DNA of 41,874 nt. Origin: an uncultured Bacteroidales bacterium (lineage in GTDB: Bacteria > Bacteroidota > Bacteroidia > Bacteroidales > Paludibacteraceae). The notes under the pieces were generated by a model. It was not told where the DNA came from. It did not search any database and was given only the letters and a program-made list of their open reading frames with translations. Made by a program: the position numbers and the translations under genes. The DNA is taken from contig ONQO01000016.1 in assembly GCA_900319995.1 (NCBI GenBank), positions 1 through 41,874 of the forward strand. Reading direction: 5' to 3'. Below, piece after piece: positions 4,305 to 20,776 of the stretch; the first letter of the stretch is position 1, and each line of letters begins with the position of its first letter.

Positions 4305-5399
4305 ATGAAAATGAGTAAATGTAAAATTTTTTTATTCTTTTTGCTCGCGGTAATGACTTTCGCTGCTTGCACAAATACAAATGAGAAAATGAGTAAATGC
4401 GAAAATGAGAAATTGGAGCTCAGTTTTTCGGCTGAGCAGGCAGCGTGGATGAGTGTCATCGCTTGCGATGAGGCAAAGGGCGATTTGGTGGCGTTGGAAT
4501 CGGTCATTCATAATGGGTTGGAGGCGGAATTGACGGTTAGCCAGATCAAAGAAGCGCTCTCGCAGTTGTATGCTTATACGGGTTTTCCGCGGAGTCTGAA
4601 TTCGCTGGGTGTTTTGCAGCGTGTTATCGGAGATCGCCAGGCGAAAGGTGTGAAGGTTATTATGGGCGAGGACGCAAGTCCGCTTGGCGATGACTACGAT
4701 GCACTTAAAGAAGGTACGCGCGTGCAGACGCAACTGGTGGGAAAGGCTTTTGAGTATGAGTTTGCGCCGGCGACGGATTATTACCTGAAGGCGCATTTAT
4801 TCGGAGATATTTTTGCTCGTGATAACTTGACTTATGCTGACCGCGAGTTGGTGACCGTTTCTGCGTTGAGCGGTCTCGAAGGCGTTGAGCCGCAACTGAA
4901 AGCACACATCGCCGGAGCACGCAATATGGGTGTGACCGAAGAGCAGTTACAAGGTATCGTAGTTGCCCTCGCGGCAAATGGTCTTCTGTCCGAAGCCGGA
5001 CGCTTGGCAGGATTGCTTGAAACGGAGTGGCCGCAAGGCAAATCGAATGATGCTTACGCGCAGTATTTCGTGGGCCAGAGTTTTCTGCAACCGTATTTCG
5101 GCGGTGTGGCGAATGTGACATTCGAGCCTCGTTGCCGCAATAACTGGCATGTTCACCACGGAGCGGTTCAAGTGCTGATCTGCGTGAGCGGCAAAGGTTG
5201 GTATCAGGAATGGAATAAGCCTGCTGTTGCGCTTACTCCGGGAACGGTGATTGCCATTCCCGAAGGCGTTAAACACTGGCATGGAGCCGCGGCGGACTCG
5301 TGGATGCAGCATTTGGCAATCCACACCCAAGAACAACCGGACGCCACAAACGAATGGCTCGAACCCGTTAATGACACACAATATAATTCTTTACAATAA
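4305..5399 (+). CDS. Lipoprotein with two carboxymuconolactone-decarboxylase domains and a cupin
   Basis: A 364-residue protein from ATG 4305. A hydrophobic signal ends in the lipobox FAAC (Cys22), so it is probably anchored in the envelope after Cys lipidation. Residues about 43-115 and 155-240 are two CMD/AhpD-like alpha-helical domains (SAEQAAWMSVIACDEAKGD; DRELVTVSALSGLEG). Residues about 265-345 are a cupin with metal-ligand candidates H282, H284, H285 (WHVHH) and H324/H326 (VKHWHG). CMD-cupin fusions are common in Bacteroidetes, where they are annotated as decarboxylase or redox-related proteins. The reaction is unproven, and no CxxC of the AhpD peroxidase type is evident in the CMD domains. 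The gene overlaps the next by one base. Confidence 0.85.
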   Translation: MKMSKCKIFLFFLLAVMTFAACTNTNEKMSKCENEKLELSFSAEQAAWMSVIACDEAKGDLVALESVIHNGLEAELTVSQIKEALSQLYAYTGFPRSLNSLGVLQRVIGDRQAKGVKVIMGEDASPLGDDYDALKEGTRVQTQLVGKAFEYEFAPATDYYLKAHLFGDIFARDNLTYADRELVTVSALSGLEGVEPQLKAHIAGARNMGVTEEQLQGIVVALAANGLLSEAGRLAGLLETEWPQGKSNDAYAQYFVGQSFLQPYFGGVANVTFEPRCRNNWHVHHGAVQVLICVSGKGWYQEWNKPAVALTPGTVIAIPEGVKHWHGAAADSWMQHLAIHTQEQPDATNEWLEPVNDTQYNSLQ

Positions 5400-6583: not shown

Positions 6584-6648
6584 GTATATGCTATGATTGA
6601 TTATGACAAAAAATGCGCCTATCATTTTTTTATTTGAACTCTTTGTTG

Positions 6649-6656
6649 TACTTTTG
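6649..6656 (+). promoter_or_regulatory. Promoter -7 element of the Sel1 operon
   Basis: TACTTTTG at 6649-6656 followed by GCA fits the -7 element. Only a T-rich stretch lies where the -33 TTTG should be, so strength is uncertain. Confidence 0.5.
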
Positions 6657-6683
6657 CACCGTGAATGAAAAAATAATAGTTTT

Positions 6684-6929
6684 ATGAAAGTACAACATTT
6701 CCCAAACACCCGCACGTTTACGTTGCGACCATCGTTCCAGGCAATCAAGCAAGTTGCCCGATTCGGTTATCCATACAAAATAGAGGTTGTTGGTCTCGCT
6801 TATGAAACGAGCACTACCACTTCCGAAAACACCGAATTGGACAGCGAATGGTTTGTAATCAGCGAGAATCCGCATGTGCTTTATTCCCGCCGTTTTGTTG
6901 AACAAAATTATGAGGAGGAGACATTATGA
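6684..6929 (+). CDS. Small hypothetical protein, 81 residues
   Basis: Not recognised. The start ATG at 6684 lies about 20 bases after the expected transcription start. The protein is soluble, with a basic aromatic first half (FTLRPSFQAIKQVARFGYPYKIEV) and an acidic tail; there is no signal or membrane segment. Its stop overlaps the start of the Sel1-repeat gene (ATGA), so it is translationally coupled to it. Position suggests a partner of the Sel1 protein. Confidence 0.6.
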   Translation: MKVQHFPNTRTFTLRPSFQAIKQVARFGYPYKIEVVGLAYETSTTTSENTELDSEWFVISENPHVLYSRRFVEQNYEEETL

Positions 6930-7747
6930 GTTGCAGAACAATACCCAAAGTGATCTTTGACAGCCTTTTGAAATACGCCAAAGAAGGCAATGCAGAATGC
7001 CAGAATTATATCGGCTATTATATTATAGAAGGAGAAACACCCGATGATGTAGCGGTAAACGAAGACCCGGTTGAGTTGATTCGTCAATCTGCCGAAAAAG
7101 GCTGGCCTGCGGCACAATATAACCTCGGTTTGCTCTATGAGCAGGGCCTATATGTGGATGAAGATGGAGCGAAAGCCTTTGAATGGTATCTCAAAGCGGC
7201 TATGCAAGGCAGCACGGAAGGCATGACCTCTGTCGGCATGTGCTATTATAATGGAATAGGCGTTACACCCGATTTGAGAAAAGCCCTGTCTTGGCTTAAC
7301 AAAGCAGCCATGTCAAAAGATGCTCGTGCACAACTCCTTTTAGCGGAGATTTATGCCAAGGATCATCGTTGCCAACACAAAGACAAAGCCTTAATGTGGT
7401 TTTGCGAGGCAGCGAAACATGATCTGACACGCGATGCCGAACTGAAGAAGTTCGTACTTGTGCCGCCGTATTATGACCAGTTACCGCCGGAGTCGATGTC
7501 TATCAACCTCCATGACCTGCGCGTGGATGAAGAGGCAGATTGGTATCCGCCTTACCCGGATCCGATGACGGAAGAGGAATTTGCTGCTTTGTTAGAAAAA
7601 GCCAAGGCGGGAGATGTGCCCGCTATGTGTCATGTAGCCGACTGCTACAAAGTCGGAAATGGCACCGAAGTGAACGTGGAGCAACTGATTTATTGGGGCA
7701 ACCGCTATTTGGATGCTATCCACGGCGAAACACCTCACGAAGAATAA
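6926..7747 (+). CDS. Sel1-like (TPR-like) repeat protein
   Basis: A 273-residue protein containing four or five Sel1-type repeats: AKEGNAECQNYIGYYI, SAEKGWPAAQYNLGLLYEQG, AMQGSTEGMTSVGMCYYNGI, AMSKDARAQLLLAEIY and a last divergent one near AKAGDVPAMCHVADCY. Sel1 repeats form alpha-solenoids that bind proteins. No signal peptide is present, so it probably acts in the cytoplasm. Its last third is duplicated as a damaged fragment at 13704-13894, which lies upstream of a paralog of the gene that follows here. Its function in the island is unknown; it may be an adaptor or an immunity-type protein. Confidence 0.85.
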   Translation: MSCRTIPKVIFDSLLKYAKEGNAECQNYIGYYIIEGETPDDVAVNEDPVELIRQSAEKGWPAAQYNLGLLYEQGLYVDEDGAKAFEWYLKAAMQGSTEGMTSVGMCYYNGIGVTPDLRKALSWLNKAAMSKDARAQLLLAEIYAKDHRCQHKDKALMWFCEAAKHDLTRDAELKKFVLVPPYYDQLPPESMSINLHDLRVDEEADWYPPYPDPMTEEEFAALLEKAKAGDVPAMCHVADCYKVGNGTEVNVEQLIYWGNRYLDAIHGETPHEE

Positions 7748-7754
7748 AAATCCT

Positions 7755-7788
7755 TCTCCTATGCATTTTTTGTGTGGGAGATTTTTTT
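7755..7788 (+). terminator. Terminator, first copy of duplicated module
   Basis: TCTCC 7755-7759 pairs with GGAGA 7777-7781 around a 17-base loop, followed by seven T. Nearly the same sequence recurs at 14485-14519. Confidence 0.65.
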
Positions 7789-7805
7789 ATTTTTTAAAAA
7801 AGTAG

Positions 7806-7813
7806 TACCTTTG
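7806..7813 (+). promoter_or_regulatory. Promoter -7 element of the decayed family member
   Basis: TACCTTTG at 7806-7813 followed by GCA. The module from the terminator through the start codon is repeated at 14481-14591. Confidence 0.6.
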
Positions 7814-7859
7814 CATCATCAAAAGAAAAAGAAGTTTAATCTAATAAATTTTGTAAGAT

Positions 7860-8724
7860 ATGTTAGATTTTAATGCAATTCAGGAACAAAAAAATACAAT
7901 TAAGGAAACAGTTTTAGGTGTTCACATCGAGTCTTGGGCTGAGGTATTTAGCTTTGATTATGATAAGAGTAATTTGAACCAATTGAGCCAAAATCATGCT
8001 TGCCGGAACCACAAGAAGGCGTGTATCGTACTGAATTCGATAAAATATACTCCAAACCGAAGCCAAATCCATACAAAGGCTTAAACGAAAAAGACAAAAA
8101 ATATGTCTTTGAATTTACAGAACCAATTTGGCCGAACGATCATGCGCACATTTGCCATAATTTTCATTTAGTCAAGTGCGCATAGATAAATACCCGCCTT
8201 ATATCTATTCCACATTCAAAATCTCTCCTGCTGTGTATGAACAGGACTGGGTAAATGCTATTAATGAATTGGAGGCCGCCATAACAATGGGAGATATGAA
8301 TGGTGTTTACACGAGGGAAGGAGCCGGCAATATAAATGACGGTCTGTTTTATCTTTCTTTCCTAAAATCACAAGTGATGGTTATGCCTTTGAATGCCGCA
8401 TTTATCAAGAATGCTCAGCTTAAAGAAGGTGCTATTTCTATCGATGACCTTGGCGTGTATTGTCCTTGCTATGATTTTGCAGGTTGTATTCGTCCTGCTG
8501 TTCTGCTTGATTTGAATGCTATTCGTAACTTTGCATCAAAAGAGAAAAAGGATGTAAAAGAACTTTATAAATATACTTTGCTCAAATTGTTTGCCTATGC
8601 GTATCAAGACCCGACGAATACAATTGACGAAACAGGAGCCTTTGTCAAAAAGGATTGGAATCCTTCTTTCTCGTATGACGAGCAGGAAGCAAATAAGTTT
8701 GTAAAGAAATACTTGGGATATTAG
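7860..8724 (+). pseudogene. Frameshifted copy of the island's unrecognised family
   Basis: Three frames together match the intact paralog at 14591-15457. Aligning the nucleotides locates two single-base losses: one T from a TTTT run near 7973-7975 and one G from a GG pair near 8170-8171. Otherwise the frame is restored, giving YPPYIYST, a C-P-C-Y element, LLKLFAYAYQD and DEQEANKFVKKYL at the end. The last 140 coding bases differ from the paralog at only three positions, while the middle is strongly divergent. Both losses fall in short homopolymers, so they could be sequencing or assembly errors; if real, the gene is dead. A GTG at 8176 could express only the C-terminal 182 residues. Confidence 0.8.
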
Positions 8725-8762
8725 TCCCAAGTACATCTCATTTAGAATAGTCTCTTTGATGC

Positions 8763-10826
8763 TTATTTGATTTCGTGATGGAAATACTCCCAAATAAACA
8801 CCATAGCCATAGTATCTAACTCGCAGTAACGGAGCAATGCGGAGCGCAGAGCATCTTCTATCTTGTCGTCGCAAAACATCATGCGGCTATATGCGGTAAG
8901 TGCAGCTCCGCCGTTTGCTACTGTCATGTCGTCTTCATAATCCAATTCTTCGTCTTGGATGCGTTGCATTTCCTCTTCGGAGATGTCCAGATACGTAGCC
9001 ATGGACGGCAAATGATGATACGGATTGTCTATTGTGCCATCAGCTGTACGGAAAATCCAAGCAATAGGAGAACTCGGATCGATATTCTGGCTTGGTATCT
9101 CTTTTCCGTATATGGCTTGGCTATATTTACTTTGCAAAAACTCCGAACTATTCAATACTGCCGGAAGCACTTTCTTGATAGAGTTAGAGCCGTGCATTTG
9201 GCTGTAGCAATAATAGTACCGTTTGACAATATCCAACAAATCCACCATGTCGCGATAGCCCTTTCTCTTTGTATCTTTGTCGTGCGTGATATTATCGATG
9301 AAGTCAATCAGTTCGCCTTTGTCTGTTTCGCGGCTTTCCTCTAACTGTGCACGAATAGCATTGAGAATCGAATTCTCATGATTCGCATAGCGGAAAATAG
9401 TTCCCTTATCCTTGGTTAGTTGACGTTTCAGTTCACGCACGAACTCAAAGTTAGGGAAAGTTTTCACATCTTCATTGAGGTATTGCCCCGCATGACGAAT
9501 GGTGTATGAGCCATCCGGCTTTTTGTCGATAATATGATGCGAGAACTGGAATGCTACCTGTTCGTAAGGATGCATGCCTTGATAAAACGGCAGGGCAACA
9601 GCTGTCGTCTCAAAATCAATCATGTGAAGTGGGTATATCCATTTATCCATTTCTGCTTTTAATCCATTACGATCGAGGTAAATGTCTCCTTGCAGGCTGT
9701 CGCCAAAATACTCTTTCCATTTGGCATTGTTGGTAGCGATCGCAACTTGTAGCCAGTGTCGTTCAGAAGCATTTAAGCCTTCCTGCGGTTTGGGATTCTC
9801 CCTAAGAGGCATGATTTCTTGCGTCAATTGGCTCTGTTTGTAGATTCCATTTTTTATCCACTCGCCTCTTCGAATATAAAGCCCCCACAAATCGCTTATT
9901 TGTGCATCTATAGCTTCGGAAGGTTTATATCCGGCTTTCTTTTGCCAGCACTCGTCTCGTCCGTCTAATAACATACCATCTGCTCCGTGACCACAGAATG
10001 GACACTTGAAGCATTTTGCATCTATGTCAGACGATAAACGTTCATCGTTTTCCCACGCTTTACGTGTGTCCTCTACAAAAGTGGCAAATTCCTTCCCAAG
10101 AACATCAATTTGCTCGGTTGTTTTTCCGTCTATGACTTGGTTGACAATACCGTCTATATCAAAAGCTGTCAGTATTGGAACTTGCGACTTAGCAATTAAG
10201 TTTGCGGCATTGGGATTCACCTCAACGGATGAACTACCATCCGTATGTTTGATTTTGAATAGCTGGTTTAGATTATCGACGTCTACTATTTGACTTTTGT
10301 CCGCCATCATTAGGTACGCGTGTACCTCGTAATCTTTATACGCGTGTGTAAGAACATATTTCTGGAATGCCAAATCATAGATATATTCCCGCCATCCGCT
10401 GGCAACGGAATGCGTCTGCTTCTTTCCCATCCAATGGTCGGTATTCGGATTAAACGATTTGGCTTTTACCTCAATAATATCTATACGCTTTCCATTCTTG
10501 CGGATAATATCTGCCCGAACAAAACAGTTCTCCCATGCGAAAGCAGCTTCTGCAATAACTACTTTCTCGAGTTTTAGCAGTTCTTCGGTTTTATCTAAAG
10601 ATTCTTTGTAACCCTTAATTTCTTTCAAATCCACCTCAACATGCTCATAGAGTTTCGCAAGTTCTCCTACTTGAAAACCGCCTTCAGCAAGCGATTGTAA
10701 GAACTCGTCATCGGTCATGCAGTTAGCATATTTCTCCGGATGTTTGGCATAATGTAGACCTGTGGGACATTCCAATGCAGCCTTGAATAACGATTTAGTA
10801 AACGGATGAGCAGTCTTCAGTTGCAT
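8763..10826 (-). CDS. DUF2779 protein with Cas4-like Fe-S nuclease and DEDD-like domains
   Basis: A 687-residue protein. The N-terminal half looks like a PD-(D/E)XK nuclease of the Cas4/AddB type: E93, D106 (VRADI) and E119-V-K121 (DIIEVKAKS). Cys20 and a later cluster (Cys272, 275, 278, 293; CFKCPFCGHG ... ECW) could bind Fe-S or zinc. The second half is DUF2779 with a DEDD-exonuclease-like DFET (404-407) and PFYQGMHPYEQVAFQFSHH, and a late RYCELDTMAMV element. It is longer than its relative at 17288 and lies on the opposite strand. It is downstream of a small nuclease-like gene (38-base gap) under a common promoter near 11460. DUF2779 proteins are associated with defence and mobile regions; the substrate is unknown. 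Confidence 0.85.
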   Translation of the reverse strand: MQLKTAHPFTKSLFKAALECPTGLHYAKHPEKYANCMTDDEFLQSLAEGGFQVGELAKLYEHVEVDLKEIKGYKESLDKTEELLKLEKVVIAEAAFAWENCFVRADIIRKNGKRIDIIEVKAKSFNPNTDHWMGKKQTHSVASGWREYIYDLAFQKYVLTHAYKDYEVHAYLMMADKSQIVDVDNLNQLFKIKHTDGSSSVEVNPNAANLIAKSQVPILTAFDIDGIVNQVIDGKTTEQIDVLGKEFATFVEDTRKAWENDERLSSDIDAKCFKCPFCGHGADGMLLDGRDECWQKKAGYKPSEAIDAQISDLWGLYIRRGEWIKNGIYKQSQLTQEIMPLRENPKPQEGLNASERHWLQVAIATNNAKWKEYFGDSLQGDIYLDRNGLKAEMDKWIYPLHMIDFETTAVALPFYQGMHPYEQVAFQFSHHIIDKKPDGSYTIRHAGQYLNEDVKTFPNFEFVRELKRQLTKDKGTIFRYANHENSILNAIRAQLEESRETDKGELIDFIDNITHDKDTKRKGYRDMVDLLDIVKRYYYCYSQMHGSNSIKKVLPAVLNSSEFLQSKYSQAIYGKEIPSQNIDPSSPIAWIFRTADGTIDNPYHHLPSMATYLDISEEEMQRIQDEELDYEDDMTVANGGAALTAYSRMMFCDDKIEDALRSALLRYCELDTMAMVFIWEYFHHEIK

Positions 10827-10864
10827 AGCAAAAAGGGTTAAGAGTATTTTTGAAAAAAAACTTA

Positions 10865-11416
10865 TTAATTGAACAATTTGGGGTATTTGTTTTTGAAATC
10901 TCCAGTAAGATCTGTTGTCTTATCTAAAAATTTATCGGAAAGGCTTATAACCCATGCGGTTCCATTTTTGCGTTTTTTAGCATCGCATTGTTCGTTATTG
11001 ACATTATATTTTTCTTGTATTTTAATTTTATCTTTAGGTATGCTACGAACGCTTTTAATAGAGCCATCTTCTTTAAATAACACTATGATTAATGTATCAA
11101 ATTCCCAACTATGAATGTCGCTTAAATTCTTACCTGTATTAGCAGTTATCCTTCTAGTTTTAACTTGTATTTTCTCTTTAATATCTCCGTTTTTTTCTAT
11201 ATCGTATCCTGCTTTTGAGGCAGTTGCTAACTTATAAGTACATCCATCATTTAATTTTTCAAAATATTCACGTACCAATTGTTCTGCAAACTCTCCGACA
11301 ATATTAGACGTTCTGCCTAATTTTTCATGAATATCATTAGTAGCTTTATTCCAACCTATCCAGGAATTATGAATATCACTAATGGAGTTTAATTTTTTCT
11401 GTTTATTTTTCGCCAT
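10865..11416 (-). CDS. Small PD-(D/E)XK endonuclease-like protein
   Basis: A 183-residue protein. The pattern GEFAEQLVREYF (Glu42), then AGYDI (Asp72), then IQVKTRR (Q84-V-K86) matches a restriction-endonuclease-like core in which Gln replaces the usual Glu of E-x-K, as in several genuine members. A lysine-rich first ten residues and a basic C-terminus suit DNA binding. It is the first gene of a minus-strand operon with the large DUF2779 protein, so the two probably act together. It could be a restriction enzyme without a methylase or a nuclease subunit. No modification gene lies nearby. Confidence 0.65.
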   Translation of the reverse strand: MAKNKQKKLNSISDIHNSWIGWNKATNDIHEKLGRTSNIVGEFAEQLVREYFEKLNDGCTYKLATASKAGYDIEKNGDIKEKIQVKTRRITANTGKNLSDIHSWEFDTLIIVLFKEDGSIKSVRSIPKDKIKIQEKYNVNNEQCDAKKRKNGTAWVISLSDKFLDKTTDLTGDFKNKYPKLFN

Positions 11417-11455
11417 AAAGTGTAAAATTTATAGTTAATATTCAAAAATTTGCTG

Positions 11456-11487
11456 CAAAGTTACAAAAAAACAATGAAATATGCAAA
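11456..11487 (-). promoter_or_regulatory. Promoter of the minus-strand nuclease operon
   Basis: Read on the minus strand: TTTG (11484-11487), 20 bases, then TAACTTTG (11456-11463). It is divergent to the promoter at 11516. Confidence 0.75.
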
Positions 11488-11515
11488 TTTATTTTTCTAA
11501 TTGAATTATTTTTCG

Positions 11516-11523
11516 TATTTTTG
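11516..11523 (+). promoter_or_regulatory. Promoter -7 element of the 355-residue family member
   Basis: TATTTTTG at 11516-11523 followed by GCAC. No good -33 TTTG. A very similar stretch precedes the gene at 14016. Confidence 0.5.
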
Positions 11524-11570
11524 CACTCGCAAAAGAAAAAATGTCTAACAATTAAAAATTAATTTAAAAT

Positions 11571-12638
11571 ATGCCATTTAAATTTGAAAATCTAAATGCA
11601 GGAGAAATGGCTGCGCAAGGTGGTTTTCTATCACAGATAGATTCTTCTATTAAAGTTGCGTGGTGTAACTTATTGCATTGCGATGAGGAATACTTGAATT
11701 ATTTATTTCGCGAAAATGATGCAAAACTCCATTTCCCAGAGGATAAGCCGATATTTGCTACAGCGGACAAATTGGAGAAAATACATGTCTCCAATAGTGA
11801 CAGTGATTTTTTGAATTTTATAGAAATTGACACATACCCCTCATATATTTATTCTCCCTTAAAGACGTTAGATAATACATGCTTTTCTAAAGCGATAGAT
11901 GAATTGGAGCAGATTATTACGCGAGGCGACATGTCTTTCAAGGCAAAATCATTAGGCTTAAGTGCTGTTGATAATCAGCCCTTTGTCCTGTCTCTTCGAA
12001 AAGCCGATGTGCCTATTGTAAGAGTAAATAGCAGCATATTTGAATCTTTAAAAAACGCAAATACCCTTTCATGTGATTCATGTGCATGTTATCTACCCGA
12101 AGACAAGCCTAATAAAAAATCTCCCACTATCATGATCAATGCAGAGATGTTAGAAGAGAGGTTTGATCGCATCAAGGATAGCAACAAGAGAGAAGCCGAG
12201 CTCATCAAAGCTTATCAATTTGATATTTTAGAGATGTTTGCTTATTCCATTAGAGAGCTTTATCCTAATGCATATGAAGGAGGTGACATTCATTTTGCAT
12301 TGGATTTTGCACTCCAATATATGAAGAATTTTGGGAAATCAGTAGATTTGTATTACAAGACTGTGCATCTTATTTCTGATTTTGATGAAGTGAAGTTTCT
12401 TGCAATAGAAGAAAAAGACCTTGAAACACTACGTGATATATTGAAAAATTTGCACAAAAGCGGATACTTGACAGATGATGCATTTGCGGCTGGTATATTA
12501 TATGACGATAACCTGCTTGACATTGATTGGAGAGAAGAAATCATTAAGCAATATGGCGATGATTATCTAACAAAGGACTACGTGAGACCACTCTCTGTCG
12601 ATTTAAAGCATCCTTATCCATGGTGGGCGATTGTATGA
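11571..12638 (+). CDS. Unrecognised island family, long member (355 residues)
   Basis: No known function recognised. It is a diverged paralog of the genes at 7860 and 14591: YPSYIYSPLK (89-98), ELEQIITRGDMSF (111-123), a C-D-S-C-A-C-Y segment (168-174), PTIMIN (185-190) and DILEMFAYSI (218-227) match the paralogs in order. After about residue 255 it has an extra helical region of about 100 residues not present in them. The DILEMFAYSI helix sits where zincin metallopeptidases have an HExxH helix, but no zinc ligands remain. There is no signal or membrane segment. It has its own promoter and terminator, so it is an independent cassette. Confidence 0.7.
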   Translation: MPFKFENLNAGEMAAQGGFLSQIDSSIKVAWCNLLHCDEEYLNYLFRENDAKLHFPEDKPIFATADKLEKIHVSNSDSDFLNFIEIDTYPSYIYSPLKTLDNTCFSKAIDELEQIITRGDMSFKAKSLGLSAVDNQPFVLSLRKADVPIVRVNSSIFESLKNANTLSCDSCACYLPEDKPNKKSPTIMINAEMLEERFDRIKDSNKREAELIKAYQFDILEMFAYSIRELYPNAYEGGDIHFALDFALQYMKNFGKSVDLYYKTVHLISDFDEVKFLAIEEKDLETLRDILKNLHKSGYLTDDAFAAGILYDDNLLDIDWREEIIKQYGDDYLTKDYVRPLSVDLKHPYPWWAIV

Positions 12639-12646
12639 CATCCTTC

Positions 12647-12694
12647 AAGCCCGTCTCATTAGCAAAAGCCGATGGGACGGGTTTGTTTTTTGTT
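12647..12694 (+). terminator. Terminator, left copy of a 48-bp direct repeat
   Basis: A 10-bp stem (12650-12659 with 12672-12681) with one G-U, then a T-rich run. It matches 20964-21011 at 45 of 48 positions in the same orientation. Confidence 0.85.
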
Positions 12695-12757
12695 TGGGAC
12701 ACAAAGCAAAAAAATGCAAAAAAATAACTTCTATTTTTTTATCCCAACTATTTGTTG

Positions 12758-12765
12758 TACCTTTG
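12758..12765 (+). promoter_or_regulatory. Promoter -7 element of the 296-residue gene
   Basis: TACCTTTG followed by GCA, preceded by AACTTCTATTTTTT, which also occurs before the promoters at 18866 and 20812. Confidence 0.6.
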
Positions 12766-12812
12766 CAGTGGAAATAAGAAAAAAGCTGACATCTAATATA
12801 ACATTAAGAAAT

Positions 12813-13703
12813 ATGAATATTATTTTTATCAAAGGAGCAAAGCAATCCGTAGTGGATTTTATCAATCGCGGTCTTAAAGGCTGCAAGTCTAAAGTACGCA
12901 TCTCTGCGAACTTGTCTGGAGAACAAATCGCCGACCGCCTCAACGGTCATGATTGTTCCATAGACATGAATTCGTATCTGCCTATTCCTGCTACCTTCCT
13001 TCATTATGACACCACTAATGGTCCATTGTCTTTCTGCGAATGGTATGCGTTGGGATGTCTTGATTACTCCGACAACTTTGATAAGGATATGTACCATACC
13101 AGATGGCAAGAAATAAACGACTATCTCAAGGCTCATCCGGAGCGGTTTACTGCGGACGAAGACGAAGAATATTCAGCAGCCGATTTGGATAAGGCACTAA
13201 AGGAAATTCACCCGGAATTGTTCGATGCGTATCGCAAATATATTCATCGCTATTATTGTGCCGCATCGTATCAAAAACGTAAATACGGAGTTGTCGGATG
13301 GGAAGATTGGGGAATGGAACACTATGGATGTCCGGCAAGTGTTCCTATGAATCAATGGAAAGTCAAAAGCGAAACGCAAGAACAACTCTGCTTGTCATTT
13401 GAGCTCATAGATACACTCGATAATCCTATTTCGTTCTTGAAATACATCAACGGTATAGATGGTATTGCTGTCTCTGCCTACGGCTTTGAGGAGAATTTCG
13501 TTCCATCTTGGTACCATTATGATGGTCAGAAAGACGAAGTAGTTTGGAAAGAAGAAGCTGAAGAAGATCTGAAATTTACGGAATATTTAGAGGCATACAA
13601 AAAGCAGGCAGAGTCCAATCCGAGGATGGCCAATTCCGAAGCATTGTATAAAATGCTGGAGGATTACGTCCGGGAATTTAAAAAGAACATGCCTAAGAAA
13701 TAG
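12813..13703 (+). CDS. Hypothetical protein, possibly Api92-like
   Basis: A 296-residue protein. The ATG at 12813 is chosen because earlier in-frame codons lie in or before the promoter. The pattern GVVGWEDWGMEHYGCPA, then LSFELIDTLDNPISFLKYI and SAYGFEENFVPSWYHYDGQ, resembles the WYxWxxxNWGTKW ... F.TAWSPP ... YxE..f.G layout of phage/mobile Api92-like proteins, but the match is loose. The protein is acidic, cytoplasmic and has a charged helical tail. It stops exactly where a fragment of the Sel1 gene begins, so its 3' end may have been reshaped by recombination. Function is unknown. Confidence 0.55.
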   Translation: MNIIFIKGAKQSVVDFINRGLKGCKSKVRISANLSGEQIADRLNGHDCSIDMNSYLPIPATFLHYDTTNGPLSFCEWYALGCLDYSDNFDKDMYHTRWQEINDYLKAHPERFTADEDEEYSAADLDKALKEIHPELFDAYRKYIHRYYCAASYQKRKYGVVGWEDWGMEHYGCPASVPMNQWKVKSETQEQLCLSFELIDTLDNPISFLKYINGIDGIAVSAYGFEENFVPSWYHYDGQKDEVVWKEEAEEDLKFTEYLEAYKKQAESNPRMANSEALYKMLEDYVREFKKNMPKK

Positions 13704-13894
13704 GCTGCGAAGCATGATTTGACTCGCGATGCTGAACAGAAAAAAGTTTGTATTCGTACCGCTATGTGTCAGGTAGCGGATTGCTACAAGGTAGGAAATG
13801 GCACCGAAGTGAACATAGAGCAACTGATCTACTGGGGTAACCGGTATTTGGATACTCTTCAGGGTGAATGCCTCGTGAAGAGGAAGAAGAATAG
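13704..13894 (+). pseudogene. Partial, internally deleted copy of the Sel1-repeat gene
   Basis: 13704-13747 matches about 7405-7451, and 13759-13868 matches about 7621-7731 of the intact gene; roughly 170 bases between them are missing and the whole N-terminal part is absent. The encoded stretch VADCYKVGNGTEVN, EQLIYWGNRYLD is recognisable. The frame is lost near the end (GECLVKRKK instead of GETPHEE). It is a relic of a duplicated cassette, not a working gene. Confidence 0.8.
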
Positions 13895-13956
13895 GTGTAA
13901 AATTACAAAAAAATATACAAATTTGCAATTATATTTTTCTATATGAATTATTTTTG

Positions 13957-13964
13957 TATCTTTG
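13957..13964 (+). promoter_or_regulatory. Promoter -7 element of the 139-residue gene
   Basis: TATCTTTG followed by GCACTC. The preceding AT-rich 40 bases resemble those before 11516. Confidence 0.6.
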
Positions 13965-14015
13965 CACTCGAAAAACAAAAACTAGTATATGAATCACCGA
14001 AAATAACTTAATTCT

Positions 14016-14435
14016 ATGTGGAAAGATACGAATCTTCAAATTACCGTCATCGGTTTATTGGTTGATGAGACCTATAAGACGATGAAATCATCTGAACCTG
14101 AAAAGTTCAAGCAGGTTGTAGATCAGTTTAGCGACATCGTTACTGATGTTGATACGACAATTGTAAAGAATGAGCAAGGTGACTTAGCTATTCGTTGCGC
14201 AGGGCAATATTATCCTATTCAAAGCGGAAGTTGGATACAAAAGGAATGTTGGACGGATGATGACGCACCCGAAGATGTACGATATAATGCGCTAGTTCCT
14301 TTTGGTGACCTTAATCATCTGCTGATGTTAGAAGCCTTTGTAAAGGTGGGACCGGATAGAGATACTCTTGCTAAAATGATTAGAGATGCTTGGGATGATT
14401 TCAAACAAGAGAGGAAGAACAAAAAGAAAGAATGA
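14016..14435 (+). CDS. Hypothetical protein, 139 residues
   Basis: Not recognised. It starts with an ATG about 45 bases after the predicted transcription start. A helical N-terminus is followed by DVDTTIVKNEQGDLAIRC and YYPIQSGSWIQKECWTDDD, which look like beta strands, then an acidic DWDD-type helical C-terminus ending in a lysine-rich tail. There is no signal peptide. It sits between the Sel1 fragment and the duplicated terminator/promoter module, where the other cassette copy has no gene, so it was inserted here or lost there. Confidence 0.55.
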   Translation: MWKDTNLQITVIGLLVDETYKTMKSSEPEKFKQVVDQFSDIVTDVDTTIVKNEQGDLAIRCAGQYYPIQSGSWIQKECWTDDDAPEDVRYNALVPFGDLNHLLMLEAFVKVGPDRDTLAKMIRDAWDDFKQERKNKKKE

Positions 14436-14484
14436 CTAACGATTCTTCTGCGAGGGCATTCCTAATGTATATGACTAAAATCCT

Positions 14485-14519
14485 TCTCCTATGCATTTTT
14501 TTGTGTGGGAGATTTTTTT
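14485..14519 (+). terminator. Terminator, second copy of duplicated module
   Basis: TCTCC 14485-14489 with GGAGA 14508-14512, then seven T. Homologous to 7755-7788. Confidence 0.65.
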
Positions 14520-14536
14520 ATTTGAAAGAAAAGTAG

Positions 14537-14544
14537 TACCTTTG
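14537..14544 (+). promoter_or_regulatory. Promoter -7 element of the intact family member
   Basis: TACCTTTG followed by GCATC, homologous to the element at 7806. Confidence 0.6.
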
Positions 14545-14590
14545 CATCGTTAAAAGAAAAAGAAGTTTAATTTAATAATTTTTGTAAGGA

Positions 14591-15457
14591 ATGGTAGATT
14601 TTAATAACATCCAAACCGAAGAAACTAATATTGCGCAAGAAATGTTAGATGTTTTCGTCAAACCATGGGCAGATGTATTTGGCTTTGAGTATGATAAGAG
14701 CAATTTTGAACCCATTGAGCCAAAATCATGCCTGCCGGAACCCCAAGAAGGCGTATATCGTACAGAAACAGATAAAATATACTCTAATCCGAAGCCATAT
14801 CCATACAAAGGAATGAAAGACGGAAAAATTGTCCTTGAATTTACGGATCCGATTTGGCCGAATGTTATCAAGGCTAAGCTTTTTAATAGCTCTAAATTAT
14901 CATTAGGTCAGATTAATAGATACCCTCCTTATATCTATTCTACATTAAAAGTAGTATATACATGTAAATCGGATGATTCTTTTACGGAAGCATTAACCGA
15001 ACTGGATGCTATTATCACGAGACAAGATATGAATTTTATAAACGAAAAACTGTTTCCTGATAATATCACTTGTCCTTTCTATTTGTCATTTCTAAAAACT
15101 CGGGTGATAATCCTGGTACTTGAAGACATTTCACTTGTTAATATTACTGCACAAAAGCCACAAAATAGAACTGTTATAAATCTTGGCTTATATTGTCCTT
15201 ATTATGATCGTAATTTTTATGATCATCACCCGACTATTATGCTTTTTTCGAATGCTATTCGTGCTTATGCTAAAAATGAGCAGAAAGATCTAAAGGAAGT
15301 GTATATGCGGACTTTGCTCAAATTGTTTGCCTATGCGTATCAAGACCTGACGAATACAATTGACGAAACAGGAGCCTTTGTCAAAAAGGAATGGAATCCT
15401 TCTTTCTCTTATGACGAGCAGGAAGCAAATAAGTTTGTAAAGAAATACTTATCTTAA
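14591..15457 (+). CDS. Unrecognised island family, intact member (288 residues)
   Basis: No known function recognised. Ordered features are CLPEPQEGVYRT (47-58), a WP-N loop (89-91), YPPYIYSTLK (111-120), ELDAIITRQDMNF (137-149), LGLYCPYYD (198-206), PTIML (214-218), LLKLFAYAYQD (242-252) and DEQEAN at 275-280 near the C-terminus. The last two occupy the spacing of the HExxHA helix and the ExxAN helix of ImmA/IrrE-like zincins, but both histidines are missing, so if the fold is shared the protein is catalytically dead. It is cytoplasmic, without membrane segments. The gene is a single-gene cassette between the duplicated promoter and a nuclease gene. Confidence 0.75.
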   Translation: MVDFNNIQTEETNIAQEMLDVFVKPWADVFGFEYDKSNFEPIEPKSCLPEPQEGVYRTETDKIYSNPKPYPYKGMKDGKIVLEFTDPIWPNVIKAKLFNSSKLSLGQINRYPPYIYSTLKVVYTCKSDDSFTEALTELDAIITRQDMNFINEKLFPDNITCPFYLSFLKTRVIILVLEDISLVNITAQKPQNRTVINLGLYCPYYDRNFYDHHPTIMLFSNAIRAYAKNEQKDLKEVYMRTLLKLFAYAYQDLTNTIDETGAFVKKEWNPSFSYDEQEANKFVKKYLS

Positions 15458-15488
15458 GATGCAAAAAATCACAAAAAACGAATTTCTA

Positions 15489-15520
15489 TTTGCATATTTG
15501 CCCAAAAAGTAGTATCTTTG
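15489..15520 (+). promoter_or_regulatory. Promoter of the two-gene nuclease unit
   Basis: TTTG 15489-15492, 20 bases, TATCTTTG 15513-15520. Confidence 0.75.
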
Positions 15521-15599
15521 CAACGAATTTTAATGAAAATCCTTAAAAAACATAGTATCAACTTTAAGAAGGAGCTTCCGATACCTCAGTTCGGGAATC

Positions 15600-17258
15600 A
15601 TGATGACAGATAATTCAAAAAGCATAGAGGATGAAATCCTCGAATTCAACAATGATTCAGATGTATTTGCATTGCGCACTCGTTATTCCCAAAAAACATT
15701 TTTGGATATAATGTCTGTGGCACGTTCTGAAAATAGGCATAGCGCGTTTCTTGCGTGGTTACTAAAAGGAGATGATTTTGCGGTTTCTCCTCAGGATCAT
15801 CCTATTGTGCATTTGTTGGATTCAATAATAACGAGAGTTGGTGAGAATAAAATTGCCGAAAGCGAAAGAGAGAACAGTCAAGAGTGTAAGATAAAAGATT
15901 ATGACCTATTAAAGAAAGCAATTCTAACTCGGGATATTAAGTCGATAGAAATTGAGGAAATAAAGACAGAAAAGTCTTTGGGTGATTTATGTGTGGATGC
16001 TACTGGAAAATCATTAACCGGTCTTCCTAAACTTGATAGAATTGATGTATATATACGATTTTCTATCGTTCGAAAAACAGAACCAAGAAAATCATTAAAT
16101 TATGAAATTATTATCGAAAACAAAATAGGTTCTTTAGAAGGCGGTAAGCCTAAAAAAACGGATAAATCTGTCGCTGGGAAAGAAATATCACCAGAATTTA
16201 ATGTCCAGCAAACTGTTAGATACTTCAAGGCTTGTACTCATAACAATAGGAAAAATAAGCCTGCTGATGGTAGTATTTTTGTATATCTAACGCCTGATCT
16301 TGAGAAAAATCCCGCTTCTCCCTATTTCATTCATATCACATATCAAGATGTATTAGATAGGATTATTGATCCGCTTCTATTACCCGATGTGAACACATCT
16401 GACAGGGTGCGTTTGTTTCTTGAAGAGTATATCTCTTCTTTATCACTTCCCGCATATGAACAAAGCGATGATTCTGAAGAGAATGCCAAGCAGATGAAGG
16501 ATGCCATAATCATGGCAGTACGTTCTAAAGAAAGAGAACAACTATCTAATTTGTGGAATGAAAATTATAAGGATTTGCTAACATCGGCAATTGAAGCATA
16601 TAATCAAACAGACGAAGAAGTTCTTAAAGATTCTGGCAATCAAATACTAAAGCAATTTTGCGAGGTAAATAAAGAATTGATAATTGCCATTTTGCGTGTC
16701 GCAGTAGAAGCTAATCCAAACGATAGTGAATTAAAAGAAGCATACAAAGATCTTATCCGTCAAAAACATGATTATTCGACTTTTAAAATTAATGATCAGG
16801 GAACAGAATACCAAAAGGGCAAGTTCTTTTTAGAAATAATAAAACGTTGGGCAAAAGCATATAATAATAATGATAGTACTATTTGCAATCCGGTAGAAAA
16901 AATAAAAGAACTGAATCTAAAAGGAGGAAAAGACGATACAATCATTAGCCAAGGAGAATATGATAATTTAATGAAACAAGTTAATGCAAAAAAAGATCCA
17001 AAGGATAGATATTATAATGAAGAAAATGATATTATTGTGGTAGATGGATTAAATTATTATGTTTCTACGCAATGGGGACAAAGCGGAAAGAGATTTCAAA
17101 ATTGGCTTGTTTTTATAGGAATAAACAATGATGAATTCAATAAGACACCAAATGGAGAAACTGGCAAACTGGATGTGAATCAAAGAACAGGAGCCGGTGC
17201 TAAAATTCTTATGGATCTAGGGATTGCAAAGATTACGTGGAAACGAATTTTGAAATAG
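15600..17258 (+). CDS. PD-(D/E)XK nuclease family protein (PDDEXK_4-like)
   Basis: A 552-residue protein. The N-terminal SENRHSAFLAWLL (43-55) is the typical helix of this family. The catalytic core is LDRIDVYI (Asp149) and EIIIENKI (Glu173, Lys175), followed by QTVRYFKA and an IFVYLTPD strand. The second half is mostly helical, with a C-terminal domain containing YYVSTQWGQSGKRFQNWLVF that recurs in Bacteroidetes proteins of this type. A second ATG at 15603 is equally possible. It probably cuts DNA in a defence context. A DUF2779 gene follows after 29 bases, likely in the same transcript. Confidence 0.8.
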   Translation: MMTDNSKSIEDEILEFNNDSDVFALRTRYSQKTFLDIMSVARSENRHSAFLAWLLKGDDFAVSPQDHPIVHLLDSIITRVGENKIAESERENSQECKIKDYDLLKKAILTRDIKSIEIEEIKTEKSLGDLCVDATGKSLTGLPKLDRIDVYIRFSIVRKTEPRKSLNYEIIIENKIGSLEGGKPKKTDKSVAGKEISPEFNVQQTVRYFKACTHNNRKNKPADGSIFVYLTPDLEKNPASPYFIHITYQDVLDRIIDPLLLPDVNTSDRVRLFLEEYISSLSLPAYEQSDDSEENAKQMKDAIIMAVRSKEREQLSNLWNENYKDLLTSAIEAYNQTDEEVLKDSGNQILKQFCEVNKELIIAILRVAVEANPNDSELKEAYKDLIRQKHDYSTFKINDQGTEYQKGKFFLEIIKRWAKAYNNNDSTICNPVEKIKELNLKGGKDDTIISQGEYDNLMKQVNAKKDPKDRYYNEENDIIVVDGLNYYVSTQWGQSGKRFQNWLVFIGINNDEFNKTPNGETGKLDVNQRTGAGAKILMDLGIAKITWKRILK

Positions 17259-17287
17259 ATTATACTTATCAGCAATTATAATTTCAT

Positions 17288-18799
17288 ATGAACCTCACTA
17301 AATCACGTTATGTAGCGTTTCGGCAGTGTCCGAAATTGTTGTGGCTGAGAATCAATAAGCCGCAAGAAGCAGCGGAGGCGGATGAGTCGCGGTTGGCTGC
17401 CGGAATAGCCGTGGGCAACTTAGCAAAGGGCTATTTCGGTGCATACCAAGAAGCAACGGCTACCAAAGCCGATGGTAATTTGGATATTCCCGCTATGATT
17501 GAGCGCACGAAAACGCTCATGGCAGATTCTTCGGTAGAAACGATCTGCGAGGCAGCGTTCTTAACAGATGGCTGTTACTGCGCTGTGGATCTGCTGCATC
17601 GAGAAAACGGAGGATGGGCGATATATGAAGTGAAGAGTTCGTCCGGAGATGATACCAAAGACCCGGATGAGGTGTATATCATGGATATCGCATATCAGCG
17701 TTATGTGTTGGATCAATGCGGAGTAAAAATCACTGGAACGTACCTGATGCGGTTGGACAGAAACTATGTCCTGCAAGGAAATTTGGACACAAAAGCGCTG
17801 TTCTATATCGATGACGTGAAGAATTCGGTAAGCACTGAATATCCCAAGGTGGCACCTAACTGCGCGAAAGCAAAAGAAATACTTTCCTTGACTACCGAAC
17901 CGGACAAAGACTTACATGAAGGATGCAATGCGCCTTACGAATGTGCATTCAAGGCGTATTGTATGAAAGCACATAATGTACCTTCGCCAAGCGTGTTTGA
18001 TCTATACCGAATGAGTTGGAAAAAAGCGTTGGAGATGTACCAAAACGGCAAGGTTAGTTTTGAATCTCTGCAAGACGAAAAGGCTATCAATGAGCATCAA
18101 CGGATGCAGATAGAACGCACCTTAAAGAATATGGATTTTATTGACAAAGATACCATCCGCGCTTTTTTAGCAACGCTCAAATATCCCATTTATCAACTTG
18201 ACTTTGAGACCGTTCAGCCTGCTATACCAGTTTATCAAGATACACATCCTTACCAGCAGGTTCCGACGCAGTACTCCCTGCATATTCTGCCTTCTGCTTT
18301 CGGCGAATGTGAGCATCTTGAGTTCTTGGCAGATGCCAGAAGTGAGAACCCTATGCGCGAAGTGGCGGAGCAATTATGCCATGATATACCGACAAATGTG
18401 ATGGTCATGGCATACAACGCAAGTTTTGAAAAAGGCCGCATCAAAGAGATGGCAGAAGCTTTTCCTGATCTGCGAGACCATCTGATGGCTATTCATGAGA
18501 ATGTAGTCGATTTGCTGGTGCCTTTCCGTAATTGGGCATATTATCGTCCGGCTATGAACGGATCATTTAGTATCAAGAAAGTGCTGCCGGCTCTGTTCCC
18601 TGATGACCCGACCTTGGATTATCACAACCTGTCCGGCTGTGTGCATAACGGCGGCGAAGCGATGGACATCTTCCCGAAAATGCGGGATATGGAAGGTCAA
18701 GAATTGGCAGACACGCGCGAATCGCTTCTTCGCTACTGCGAATTGGATACATGGTCCATGGTCGTCGTGTTAAGAAAACTATACGAAGTGTCCAAATAG
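17288..18799 (+). CDS. DUF2779 protein with Cas4-like Fe-S nuclease and DEDD-like domains
   Basis: A 503-residue protein with a clearer domain layout than the related 687-residue one. RQCPKLLWL (Cys14) and CNAPYECAFKAYC (Cys213, 219, 225) give the four cysteines of Cas4/AddB-type Fe-S nucleases; Asp101 and Glu114-V-Lys116 form the PD-(D/E)XK site. DUF2779 starts near 298 with YQLDFETVQPAIPVYQDTHP and ends with RYCELDTWSMV, consistent with a DEDD exonuclease-like fold. Base composition is less AT-rich than the gene upstream, so the pair may be of mixed origin. Likely processes DNA ends or foreign DNA; the substrate is unknown. Confidence 0.88.
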   Translation: MNLTKSRYVAFRQCPKLLWLRINKPQEAAEADESRLAAGIAVGNLAKGYFGAYQEATATKADGNLDIPAMIERTKTLMADSSVETICEAAFLTDGCYCAVDLLHRENGGWAIYEVKSSSGDDTKDPDEVYIMDIAYQRYVLDQCGVKITGTYLMRLDRNYVLQGNLDTKALFYIDDVKNSVSTEYPKVAPNCAKAKEILSLTTEPDKDLHEGCNAPYECAFKAYCMKAHNVPSPSVFDLYRMSWKKALEMYQNGKVSFESLQDEKAINEHQRMQIERTLKNMDFIDKDTIRAFLATLKYPIYQLDFETVQPAIPVYQDTHPYQQVPTQYSLHILPSAFGECEHLEFLADARSENPMREVAEQLCHDIPTNVMVMAYNASFEKGRIKEMAEAFPDLRDHLMAIHENVVDLLVPFRNWAYYRPAMNGSFSIKKVLPALFPDDPTLDYHNLSGCVHNGGEAMDIFPKMRDMEGQELADTRESLLRYCELDTWSMVVVLRKLYEVSK

Positions 18800-18830
18800 A
18801 AAGCTTGACTTAGGGCGAGATGCAAAAAAG

Positions 18831-18877
18831 ATTAACTTCTATTTTTTAATTTGAAAATAAAGTATTATCTTTGCAGC
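18831..18877 (+). promoter_or_regulatory. Promoter in a 47-bp sequence used twice
   Basis: The -7 element TATCTTTG is at 18866-18873 followed by GCAGC. The whole 47 bases are identical to 20777-20823. Confidence 0.75.
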
Positions 18878-18942: not shown

Positions 18943-20679
18943 ATGTCACCAAGAATTTTAAATGATTCCATTATTGGAGTTTTATCCAAAATCCCTTCTA
19001 ATGATCTTATCTTGCCTGCTTTGCAGCGTGAGTTCGTGTGGAAAACAAAAGATATATGTGAATTGTTTGACAGTTTGATGCAGGACTATCCAATAAATAC
19101 CATGATGTTTTGGAAAACTAATAATCTTCCCTCTCAACCGATCGCTTTTTACCAATTCTTACCGGCACATCATGTAAATGGAACCACTAATCCTTTTTTC
19201 AATCATAAAGCTGCAACAGCGAACAAACCATATGAAATAGTAATTGATGGTCAACAGCGATTGACCAGTTTGTGGATTGGGTTATATGGTTCCTATAAAA
19301 CGCCCGCCGGTAAACAACGTGCGGAGTTATATCTTCGTTTAGATAAGTCCAACACGAATCCAGATTTGAAATATGATTTTCAATTCTTAACACCGTCCAA
19401 ATTGACGAGCAATCAAAAGAAGGGGGAAGTTTGGTTTAGGGTAAAAGATGTTCTTCCCGCATCTTTTAATATCGTGAATACATTGCAGGGATTAGGATTG
19501 CAGAATAATGAATATGCACAAACCTCTATTCAGCAGTTGTGGCAATTAATAAATAACAATGCTATTATTAATTATTACGAGATCAATAGTAATAATATAG
19601 ATGATGTTTTGGAAATCTTTGTTCGTACGAATAGCGGTGGATATGTTCTTAAAAAAGGCGATCTGCTAATGTCTGCCCTTACAGTTAGTTGGGCAAATAA
19701 TGGTTATACGATTAGTGCACGGGATTATGTGGGAGATATAATCGATTTAGTGGAAAAAAAGAACTATGAGGTGGATAAAGATTGGGTATTCAAGATGTTC
19801 TTGATGTTATTTGGCAATACCCTTAGTGTACAACCATCCGATTTTATGGCAACTGATACTACACCAAATATCCCACAATCCATATATATGAATAGCCAAC
19901 TGATAATGGATAGTGTGGAAAAAGCATTTGACTTGGTGGCTGATTTTCATCTGTTAGAAAAAGGCTTGACTACAAAATTAGCAGTTATTCCTCTGGTATA
20001 TTATATATACAAGCATAAACTTTCACATACAGCCATCCAATCAACAAACGCTATGAGTGGTGTGTATATGGATATCAGAAAATATTTGTTCCGCGCGATT
20101 CTCAAAAACTTATATGAAGCTGGAACGGATGAGATTTTGAAGAATATAAGAGATATCATAGATTCTCACTCTTCAAAAAGCAAATTCCCATATCGAGAAA
20201 TTGAAAATGCATACAATAAACTAATCATTACAAACGCAGATGCTGATAGTCTTTTAGCCACCAGAAAACAGAACGCATTCCCAGTTTTGAATATCATTTA
20301 TGCATTGGGGGCATCAAGTGGACTATGTATGACACCGGTTGCCGGACAAGTATATGACGTGGATCATATGCACCCTAAAACCACATTTGCTCCCGCGGTA
20401 TTAAATACCATCAATTTTAATACTCCAAATGATGCAAATGTTGCGAATGATGGCATTACGTATGACACAGTTGCAAATCTCGAACTATTGGACAATGATA
20501 CTAATCGTTCCAAGAACAAGAAACCTTTAAAAGATTGGCTGAATGCCGCTACTCCGGCAGATCAAATCAAATATCCCCAAGATCATTTCTTCAAGGGTTT
20601 GTCCATTGATATCGCTGATTTTGGAACATTTGTAGATGCACGTAAGAAATTATTAAATCAAGCACTTTGTCTATTATAA
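18943..20679 (+). CDS. GmrSD-like DUF262 / HNH (DUF1524) protein
   Basis: A 578-residue protein. The N-terminal DUF262 domain, a ParB/Srx-like nucleotidase fold, has LPALQREFVWK (24-34) and the hallmark IDGQQRLTSL (101-110). The C-terminal HNH domain has YDVDHMHPKTTF (His475 region) and NLELLDNDTNRSKNKKPLKDWL near 510-530. Single-chain GmrSD-type enzymes cut modified (for example glucosylated) phage DNA using NTP; related DUF262-HNH proteins act in several defence systems. The gene has its own promoter and no modification partner, which fits a type IV-like system. Both domains appear complete. Confidence 0.88.
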   Translation: MSPRILNDSIIGVLSKIPSNDLILPALQREFVWKTKDICELFDSLMQDYPINTMMFWKTNNLPSQPIAFYQFLPAHHVNGTTNPFFNHKAATANKPYEIVIDGQQRLTSLWIGLYGSYKTPAGKQRAELYLRLDKSNTNPDLKYDFQFLTPSKLTSNQKKGEVWFRVKDVLPASFNIVNTLQGLGLQNNEYAQTSIQQLWQLINNNAIINYYEINSNNIDDVLEIFVRTNSGGYVLKKGDLLMSALTVSWANNGYTISARDYVGDIIDLVEKKNYEVDKDWVFKMFLMLFGNTLSVQPSDFMATDTTPNIPQSIYMNSQLIMDSVEKAFDLVADFHLLEKGLTTKLAVIPLVYYIYKHKLSHTAIQSTNAMSGVYMDIRKYLFRAILKNLYEAGTDEILKNIRDIIDSHSSKSKFPYREIENAYNKLIITNADADSLLATRKQNAFPVLNIIYALGASSGLCMTPVAGQVYDVDHMHPKTTFAPAVLNTINFNTPNDANVANDGITYDTVANLELLDNDTNRSKNKKPLKDWLNAATPADQIKYPQDHFFKGLSIDIADFGTFVDARKKLLNQALCLL

Positions 20680-20734: not shown

Positions 20735-20776
20735 GCAAACATTCATGAGCTAATTAGGGCTAATTGCAAAAAAAAA

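Follow-up and report, generated by a model that had tools for sequence, protein, structure and literature searches.

Three related genes in a stretch of DNA from an uncultured Bacteroidales bacterium (Paludibacteraceae; GenBank assembly GCA_900319995.1) appear to descend from a family of HExxH proteins of zincin type and to have lost the metal-binding histidines, a descent that is supported by profile and alignment comparisons. The stretch, referred to here as the window, is 41,874 nucleotides long and is the whole of contig ONQO01000016.1 (C122 in our numbering) of a draft, fragmented assembly (2.6 Mb in 143 contigs, 88% complete). Two of the genes are intact and encode P0001 and P0002; the third, at 7860, is broken (its 3' piece is P0003) and has an intact orthologue at locus L008 in a rumen metagenome-assembled genome, RUG14447. 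P0001, P0002, the broken copy, and the L008 protein are called window-type proteins below. We favor, at a probability of roughly 0.45, a reading in which the window genes form a branch, HExxH-less and catalytically dead, of an undescribed family of zincin type, and in which their products would be non-catalytic binders serving in orphan immunity or as decoys.

Relationship to HExxH proteins

The HExxH proteins were first found in DUF2779 neighborhoods of congeners. The L045 protein, used as a query, has matches in 15 of 358 family-level genomes, and the 17 loci from this search yielded the 14 proteins used here, L057 being without a confirmed open reading frame (ORF) and the best ORFs of L064 and L065 repeating L051 and L053. 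This family (L044-L046 and L049-L063) comes from the same family-level group as the window, its landmarks are collinear with those of the window proteins, and some of its members lie, as the window genes do, in arrays with DUF2779, GmrSD, and Sel1 genes. The window proteins and L062 have in common IYS, GDMN, S-LK, LGxY, P-I, the HExxH helix, and the EExAN helix.

Among 156 ORFs, a profile of the window family (A1) finds L062 at 47.7 bits (E 1.2e-14, L062 residues 94-259), with the next sequence at E 0.053, and the alignment is collinear, placing HEYAHAIMD under KLFAYAYQD and EESLAN on DEQEAN. By BLASTP against the 14 HExxH-family proteins, L062 is matched by P0003 (E 7e-7), P0001 (2e-6), P0002 (3e-5), and the L008 protein (3e-4). 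A profile of the 13 members other than L062, run on 238 ORFs, ranks P0001 (E 2.2e-6), the broken copy (2.5e-6), and the L008 protein (8.1e-6) directly under the true members; three other ORFs also match (E 2e-4 to 1.5e-3), of which one is a further HExxH protein and the other two look like the N-terminal part of L058-L060. Comparison of the four window-type proteins with the 13 members by hhalign gives a probability of 81 and a score of 46.5, against at most 23 in 50 column shuffles and control scores of 15.6 for ImmA/IrrE and 14.2 for DUF2779. The initial annotation had proposed that two helices of these proteins align in position and wording with the HExxHA and ExxAN helices of zincins, the histidines being replaced, and at the level of sequence this holds against real HExxH homologs.

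P0001 lacks the C-terminal part that the HExxH proteins have and stops directly after its EExAN helix. A resemblance seen by eye between the C-terminus of P0002 and that of the HExxH proteins (IDWR) scored below shuffled sequences and was dropped. Some of twelve HExxH relatives give weak Pfam matches to Zincin_1 (PF06262; 6 of 12, best E 0.0014), SprT-like (PF10263; 4 of 12, best E 0.00084), and DUF4344 (PF14247; 1 of 12, best E 0.082), with scores that lie under the Pfam cut-off where shown and, for the best ones, presumably under it as well. No such match comes from the window proteins, and the relation of the HExxH relatives to these models covers, where shown, little beyond the motif helix.

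Near an HExxH gene at L067, two stand-alone proteins (3148-3600 and 4502-4972) give weak HExxH-family profile matches (E 2e-4 and 3e-4); they read like the N-terminal part of L058-L060, possibly through a split or a fusion. A 454-aa protein at L042 (10311-11675, minus strand) with HETMH and EEPLAE may be a more distant zincin-type array gene; HEC-05, DUF2779, and the 139-aa family are common to its array and the window.

Loss of the metal site and maintenance of the genes

What sets the window proteins apart from the HExxH family is that HExxH is absent, in all four window-type proteins. At its position in an alignment of 16 rows (A5), P0001 and the L008 protein read KLFAY, as does the broken copy, and P0002 reads EMFAY; at the EESxAN position P0001, the L008 protein, and the broken copy have DEQEAN, with the third-ligand glutamate kept, and P0002 has DIHFAL, where the third-ligand position is lost. 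With both histidines and the catalytic glutamate gone, proteolysis by these proteins seems unlikely. HExxH is intact in 10 of the 14 other family members and altered in L058 and L059 (YEFAH), L060 (CEFAH), and L063 (HALAH), damaged motifs that suggest repeated loss. In a tree that kept the motif columns and in which several branches are long, the four window-type proteins group together in a single clade (98/96), with L062 as its neighbor (91/88); the HExxH state needs three changes on this tree, and the starred branches alone force only one.

Crude dN/dS ratios, which recombination blurs, are 0.51 for P0001 against L008 and 0.34 for P0003 against L008. Together with a loss of HExxH that would predate the split of P0001 and P0002, and with the long divergence since, these values point to non-catalytic genes that have apparently been maintained. 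The window's own genome holds no HExxH member by the L045 protein (0 matches) or by profile A5 (the three family loci only), soft negatives at 88% completeness, which makes inhibition of an active relative in the same cell less likely.

Gene mosaic and exchange of the downstream nuclease

The three genes lie where they had been reported (Table 1) and are mutually homologous: P0001 and P0002 are identical at 49 of 171 positions (29%; BLASTP E 3e-11), P0001 and the broken copy share 54% identity over residues 104-287, and genome and profile searches find only these three family loci in the genome. Across P0001, P0002, the L008 protein, and P0003, 35 columns are invariant, including Y-P-x-Y-I-Y-S, D-M, F-x-L-S, Y-x-P, and F-A-Y. 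The wording ascribed to all three copies had been partly overstated. YPxYIYS is indeed present throughout, but PTIM and IITRxDM are exact in P0001 and P0002 only (the 7860 copy has PAVL and AITMGDM), and LLKLFAYAYQD, which P0001 and the 7860 copy have exactly, is replaced in P0002 by ILEMFAYSIRE; DEQEANKF is confined to P0001 and the 7860 copy, as had been said. That the 7860 copy is broken is borne out by alignment with its L008 orthologue, in which small frame-breaking indels occur at two places (60-base windows from 7961, with two gap columns, and from 8141, with one). P0003 is 94.5% identical to the L008 protein over 181 codons, and the breaks may stem from an assembly error in the draft genome.

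Window positions 6625-8714, 17288-18812, and 20961-22864 match L008 at 92, 95, and 96% DNA identity, and the stretch between has been rebuilt. The order at L008 is a Sel1 gene, the family gene, a 270-aa ORF, and DUF2779; in the window it is Sel1, the broken family gene, inserted genes including that of P0002, a Sel1 fragment, a 139-aa gene, P0001, a PDDEXK_4 nuclease, DUF2779, and GmrSD/HEC-05. Past P0001 the intergenic region matches L008 up to the nuclease start, homology resumes at the start of DUF2779, and the two ORFs in nuclease position have no significant similarity (best BLASTP E 0.30). A 24-nt element, GGAGCnTCCGATACCTnAGTTCGG (15571-15594; at L008 just before 9005), is kept before the start of both of these dissimilar ORFs. 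A structured 5' untranslated region before the nuclease was considered and rejected (folding z-scores -0.11 and -0.02, the RNA of the 24-nt element being not unusually stable), Rfam has no match in the window, and a YPPYIYS-like piece in the 270-aa ORF (tblastn E 0.65) is taken as chance.

Along P0001, 60-base windows are 73-93% identical to L008 over 14496-14855, except one at 48%, then 47-63% over 14856-15275, and 78, 98, 97, and 88% at the 3' end up to 15515, beyond the stop codon. The family genes are mosaics with conserved ends and a variable middle.

Distribution

The family had been called unrecognized, and no Pfam, NCBIfam, or PADLOC model matches the window members above cut-off. With E allowed up to 0.1, neither the window family nor 12 HExxH relatives match any PADLOC model, Pfam matches are at chance level (P0002 E 0.075, broken copy E 0.14), the best PHROG match of a family member has E 0.12, a PDB match of P0002 (E 0.04) lies outside the shared core, and up to E 10 neither P0001 nor the family profile has a PDB match. 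Phages, plasmids, and viral contigs contain no match for P0001, P0002, the L045 protein, or L062, nor viral contigs any for alignments A1 and A6, in scans by short patterns or tblastn that would miss distant relatives. Nothing on the family was found in titles and abstract beginnings of the literature.

A scan of genome contigs returned one relative, the L008 gene, which is the only close relative to have turned up elsewhere. The 358 family-level genomes give three matches at E <= 0.001, namely the window's own genome, G148, and G212, the last judged a chance match because the opposite ORF reads like a thermolysin-type peptidase; among 393 and 149 genomes drawn from the order, the own genome is the sole match. 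The genome search with profile A1 missed L062 in G181, a protein that the profile scores at E 1.2e-14 directly; the first look of this search therefore misses distant relatives, and these counts are all lower bounds. Weak profile matches at L007, L016, L017, L020, and L021 are put down to chance, the ORFs on or opposite them reading in translation as unrelated proteins; that reading left out L018 and L022, and L014, L015, and L019 carry in-frame stops.

Neighborhoods of relatives

Four of nine loci found with an HExxH query (112 kb) carry defense-type genes: DUF2779 (L069, L073), GmrSD (L067), and Sel1 with a relative of the 343-aa window gene (L074). Such genes occur in none of 11 control windows (145 kb from six genomes, five of which are among the nine). 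The difference (one-sided Fisher p 0.026, with control positions chosen by the analyst and two of 13 windows, L083 at 350 bp and L090 at 3.3 kb, dropped) agrees with the nuclease- and defense-type array setting described by the initial annotation. The nine loci represent 9 of the 12 genomes beyond those reached via DUF2779 (G307, G343, and G344 were left out), and L044-L046 stand outside the count because they were brought in through DUF2779. One GmrSD query came from L067, which an independent GmrSD query also matches (32%, E 5e-7). Within the genus, eight genomes have a close DUF2779 relative and 10 have a family member, with five belonging to both sets where 0.45 would be expected; this co-occurrence is biased and is given no weight because the HExxH query was picked from a DUF2779 neighborhood. 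An ATPase that we take to be of the AAA_14/DUF4143 type lies near an HExxH-family gene at L066, L068, and L071; L066 was the query source, and these AAA-type matches were not counted for that reason.

Proposed role and alternatives

The loss of HExxH in genes of a shuffled DNA-cutting and defense array suggests proteins that probably grip another protein instead of cutting it. A binding role is favored because pseudopeptidases act by interaction, and because the pattern of ends and middle and the likeness to orphan-immunity arrays fit it. In the mechanism that we propose, each family gene would form a cassette by itself, headed by a promoter-like element of its own, within an array of nuclease-, defense-, and immunity-type genes that recombines fast. 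Their products would retain a fold like that of zincins and work through a bound protein partner; in orphan immunity or as decoys they would neutralize an incoming effector from another bacterium or a phage, and several divergent copies, together with recombination, would widen the range recognized. A number of observations weigh against this proposal. For P0002 the match to the 13-member profile reaches no better than E 0.05, and no relation to the HExxH family can be detected in its C-terminal third. The analysis turned up no effector, secretion system, or phage target. In contrast to a typical orphan-immunity array of the rAID kind, this one includes nucleases of full size, and two of its genes lie on the minus strand; a tyrosine recombinase (PF00589) is absent from C122, the genome's two matches lying on C95 and C118 of the fragmented assembly. 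Promoter-like elements occur about once per kb on the plus strand, so that a match within 180 nt of one gene is not rare. Finally, dN/dS is lower in the neighbors (0.155 for the Sel1-repeat gene, SLR, and 0.107 for DUF2779), which leaves room for partial decay.

The clean nuclease swap between two genomes makes a nuclease-partner role the main rival: the pseudo-zincin would be a dedicated inhibitor, adaptor, or licence of the downstream nuclease, and its variable middle would track the nuclease. We regard this as conceivable but doubtful. P0001 and the L008 gene both directly precede the ORF in nuclease position, followed by DUF2779; that ORF is swapped cleanly at its start codon (552-aa PDDEXK_4 versus 270 aa) with the intergenic promoter region kept; the two proteins differ most in the middle; and the broken copy, closest to the L008 protein, has lost the 270-aa neighbor, which has no significant match in the window. 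Yet only two genomes are involved, the 270-aa ORF matches no nuclease family and is called nuclease-like by its place and reading, P0002 is intact with no nuclease following, family gene and nuclease have separate promoter-like elements, and HExxH-family members elsewhere adjoin varied genes. A related and unlikely idea is that the dead zincins are an exchangeable recognition module before swappable nucleases, the conserved ends allowing the middle and the nuclease ORF to be replaced; if so, one array could be re-armed with new pairs of nuclease and pseudo-zincin. Decay, in which the genes have no present function, the array gathers fragments, and the family is on its way out, would account for the one broken copy in three, the SLR fragment nearby, the dN/dS raised over that of the neighbors, and the few genomes with the family (2 of 358 as read). 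It is nonetheless improbable given intact ORFs of 288 and 355 aa and an intact L008 orthologue after divergence to 27-29% identity that, on the tree, followed the loss of HExxH, with dN/dS below 1 and promoter-like elements kept.

Two further readings concern the fold and the active site. The proteins might still be enzymes with another active site or metal, for example the EExAN glutamate kept in P0001 plus new residues; with both histidines and the general-base glutamate of HExxH gone from all four window-type proteins, and the third-ligand position gone from P0002 as well, we think this very unlikely. Least credible is the zinc-less ImmA/IrrE-like fold (Peptidase_M78, PF06114) suggested by the initial annotation, which would make the proteins sensors or regulators. 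The order of the HExxH-position helix and then the ExxAN helix is the same, and the HExxH family itself matches ImmA/IrrE weakly (probability 47-53% over 28-80 columns), but the window family, which lacks HExxH, shows no profile similarity: hhalign against six ImmA/IrrE proteins (those of nine PF06114 matches that gave an ORF with the expected motif) yields a probability of 0.2%, located away from the motif helix, whereas leave-one-out controls recover 6 of 6 at 96.8-99.0%. PF06114 is likewise not matched by the window family in Pfam, and membership is rejected on the profile comparison with its positive controls.

Features of the window array

A TAnnTTTG element, presumably the Bacteroidota-type -7 promoter consensus, precedes each family gene by 54-55 nt (Table 1). 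Promoter-bearing intergenic repeats recur in the window and in the arrays of other genomes, and are likely to serve as a substrate for recombination; those at 18810-18940 and 20739-20827 in the window, and at L042 and L043, are common to different cassettes in several genomes. Of the 10 array genes (7860-20679), eight have a GC content below 41%, two are on the minus strand, and four exceed 500 codons. Beyond the array, an AAA+ ATPase gene with IetA/TRIP13-like PADLOC matches (20976-22625, minus strand) is split into 169 and 375 aa where L008 has one ORF of 549 aa, an AbiEii-type nucleotidyltransferase gene lies near the contig start (783-1439, plus strand; Pfam E 2.5e-14), and an ORF of 2112 aa occupies 32408-38746 (plus strand).

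Table 1. Family genes, motif positions, array genes, and promoter-like elements in the window
Feature	Position	Strand	Evidence or remark
P0001, intact family member, 288 aa	14591..15457	+	HExxH-family profile without L062 matches at E 2.2e-6
P0002, intact divergent member, 355 aa	11571..12638	+	BLASTP against L062, E 2.7e-5
Broken family copy, orthologue of intact L008 gene	7860..8724	+	matching pieces about 7860-7988, 7967-8140, 8170-8724
KLFAY in P0001, at HExxH place	15320..15334	+	alignment with L062 HEYAH
DEQEAN in P0001, at EESLAN place (third-ligand helix), ligand-position glutamate kept	15413..15430	+	alignment
EMFAY in P0002, at HExxH place	12231..12245	+	alignment
KLFAY in broken copy	8584..8598	+	same reading as in P0001
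Sel1-repeat gene (SLR)	6926..7747	+	90% identical to gene preceding L008 family gene
Second DUF2779 protein	8763..10826	-	no orthologous stretch in L008
Restriction-enzyme-like gene	10865..11416	-	PADLOC mREase_II, E 2e-12
343-aa gene, no assignment	12672..13703	+	two segments 42 and 44% identical to 205-aa gene in L074, near L063 family member
Fragment with SLR 3' end, upstream of P0001 unit	13719..13946	+	repeat D6
139-aa gene, no assignment	14016..14435	+	35% identical to array gene in L042
PDDEXK_4 nuclease, 552 aa, downstream of P0001	15600..17258	+	L008 has dissimilar 270-aa ORF there
DUF2779 protein	17288..18799	+	96% identical to L008 orthologue
GmrSD_N / HEC-05 gene	18943..20679	+	no counterpart at this place in L008
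TACCTTTG, putative -7 element	14537..14544	+	54 nt before P0001
TATTTTTG, -7-like element	11516..11523	+	55 nt before P0002
TACCTTTG, -7-like element	7806..7813	+	54 nt before broken copy

Comparison with known systems

An apparently maintained HExxH-less branch with HExxH-bearing relatives in sister genomes would allow a direct test of the role that a defense-array protein takes on after catalysis is lost. The family has no name in the searched libraries, which means that arrays of this sort contain genes still without one, and the nuclease swap, flanked by a promoter region and a DUF2779 gene that are both kept, offers a concrete site for studying effector exchange in arrays. Peptidase switches of the CapP/CapH type are known. 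Pseudopeptidases act through protein-protein interaction (PMC11266112), and in them, as in the window proteins, active-site residues of HExxH peptidases are replaced; in the parts of that source covered here, the table entries are M1, M12, M13, M14, M24, and M41 proteins and the word 'immunity' does not occur in the main text. Inactive zincin-like domains fused to STAND NTPases are described in bacterial conflict systems in the portion of PMC8195603 consulted, so a dead zincin in conflict is not a new idea.

Orphan immunity offers further parallels. In the portions of the two sources drawn on here, rAIDs are arrays of orphan immunity genes whose copies diverge, whose GC is low, and whose intergenic motifs are conserved (PMC12247911), and immunity genes carry blocks of similarity at their 5' and 3' ends (tipC) or across the gene end and the downstream intergenic region (esaG; PMC9484751). 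The window differs from rAIDs as described there in having no recombinase on the contig, nucleases present, mixed strands, and no known cognate toxin, and its array does not consist of co-oriented genes of about 100-300 codons. With rAIDs and the orphan immunity of polymorphic toxins, as given in the same portions (PMC12247911, PMC9484751), it may have repeated intergenic sequence in common, and it shares divergent copies, low GC, and genes with conserved ends and a variable middle.

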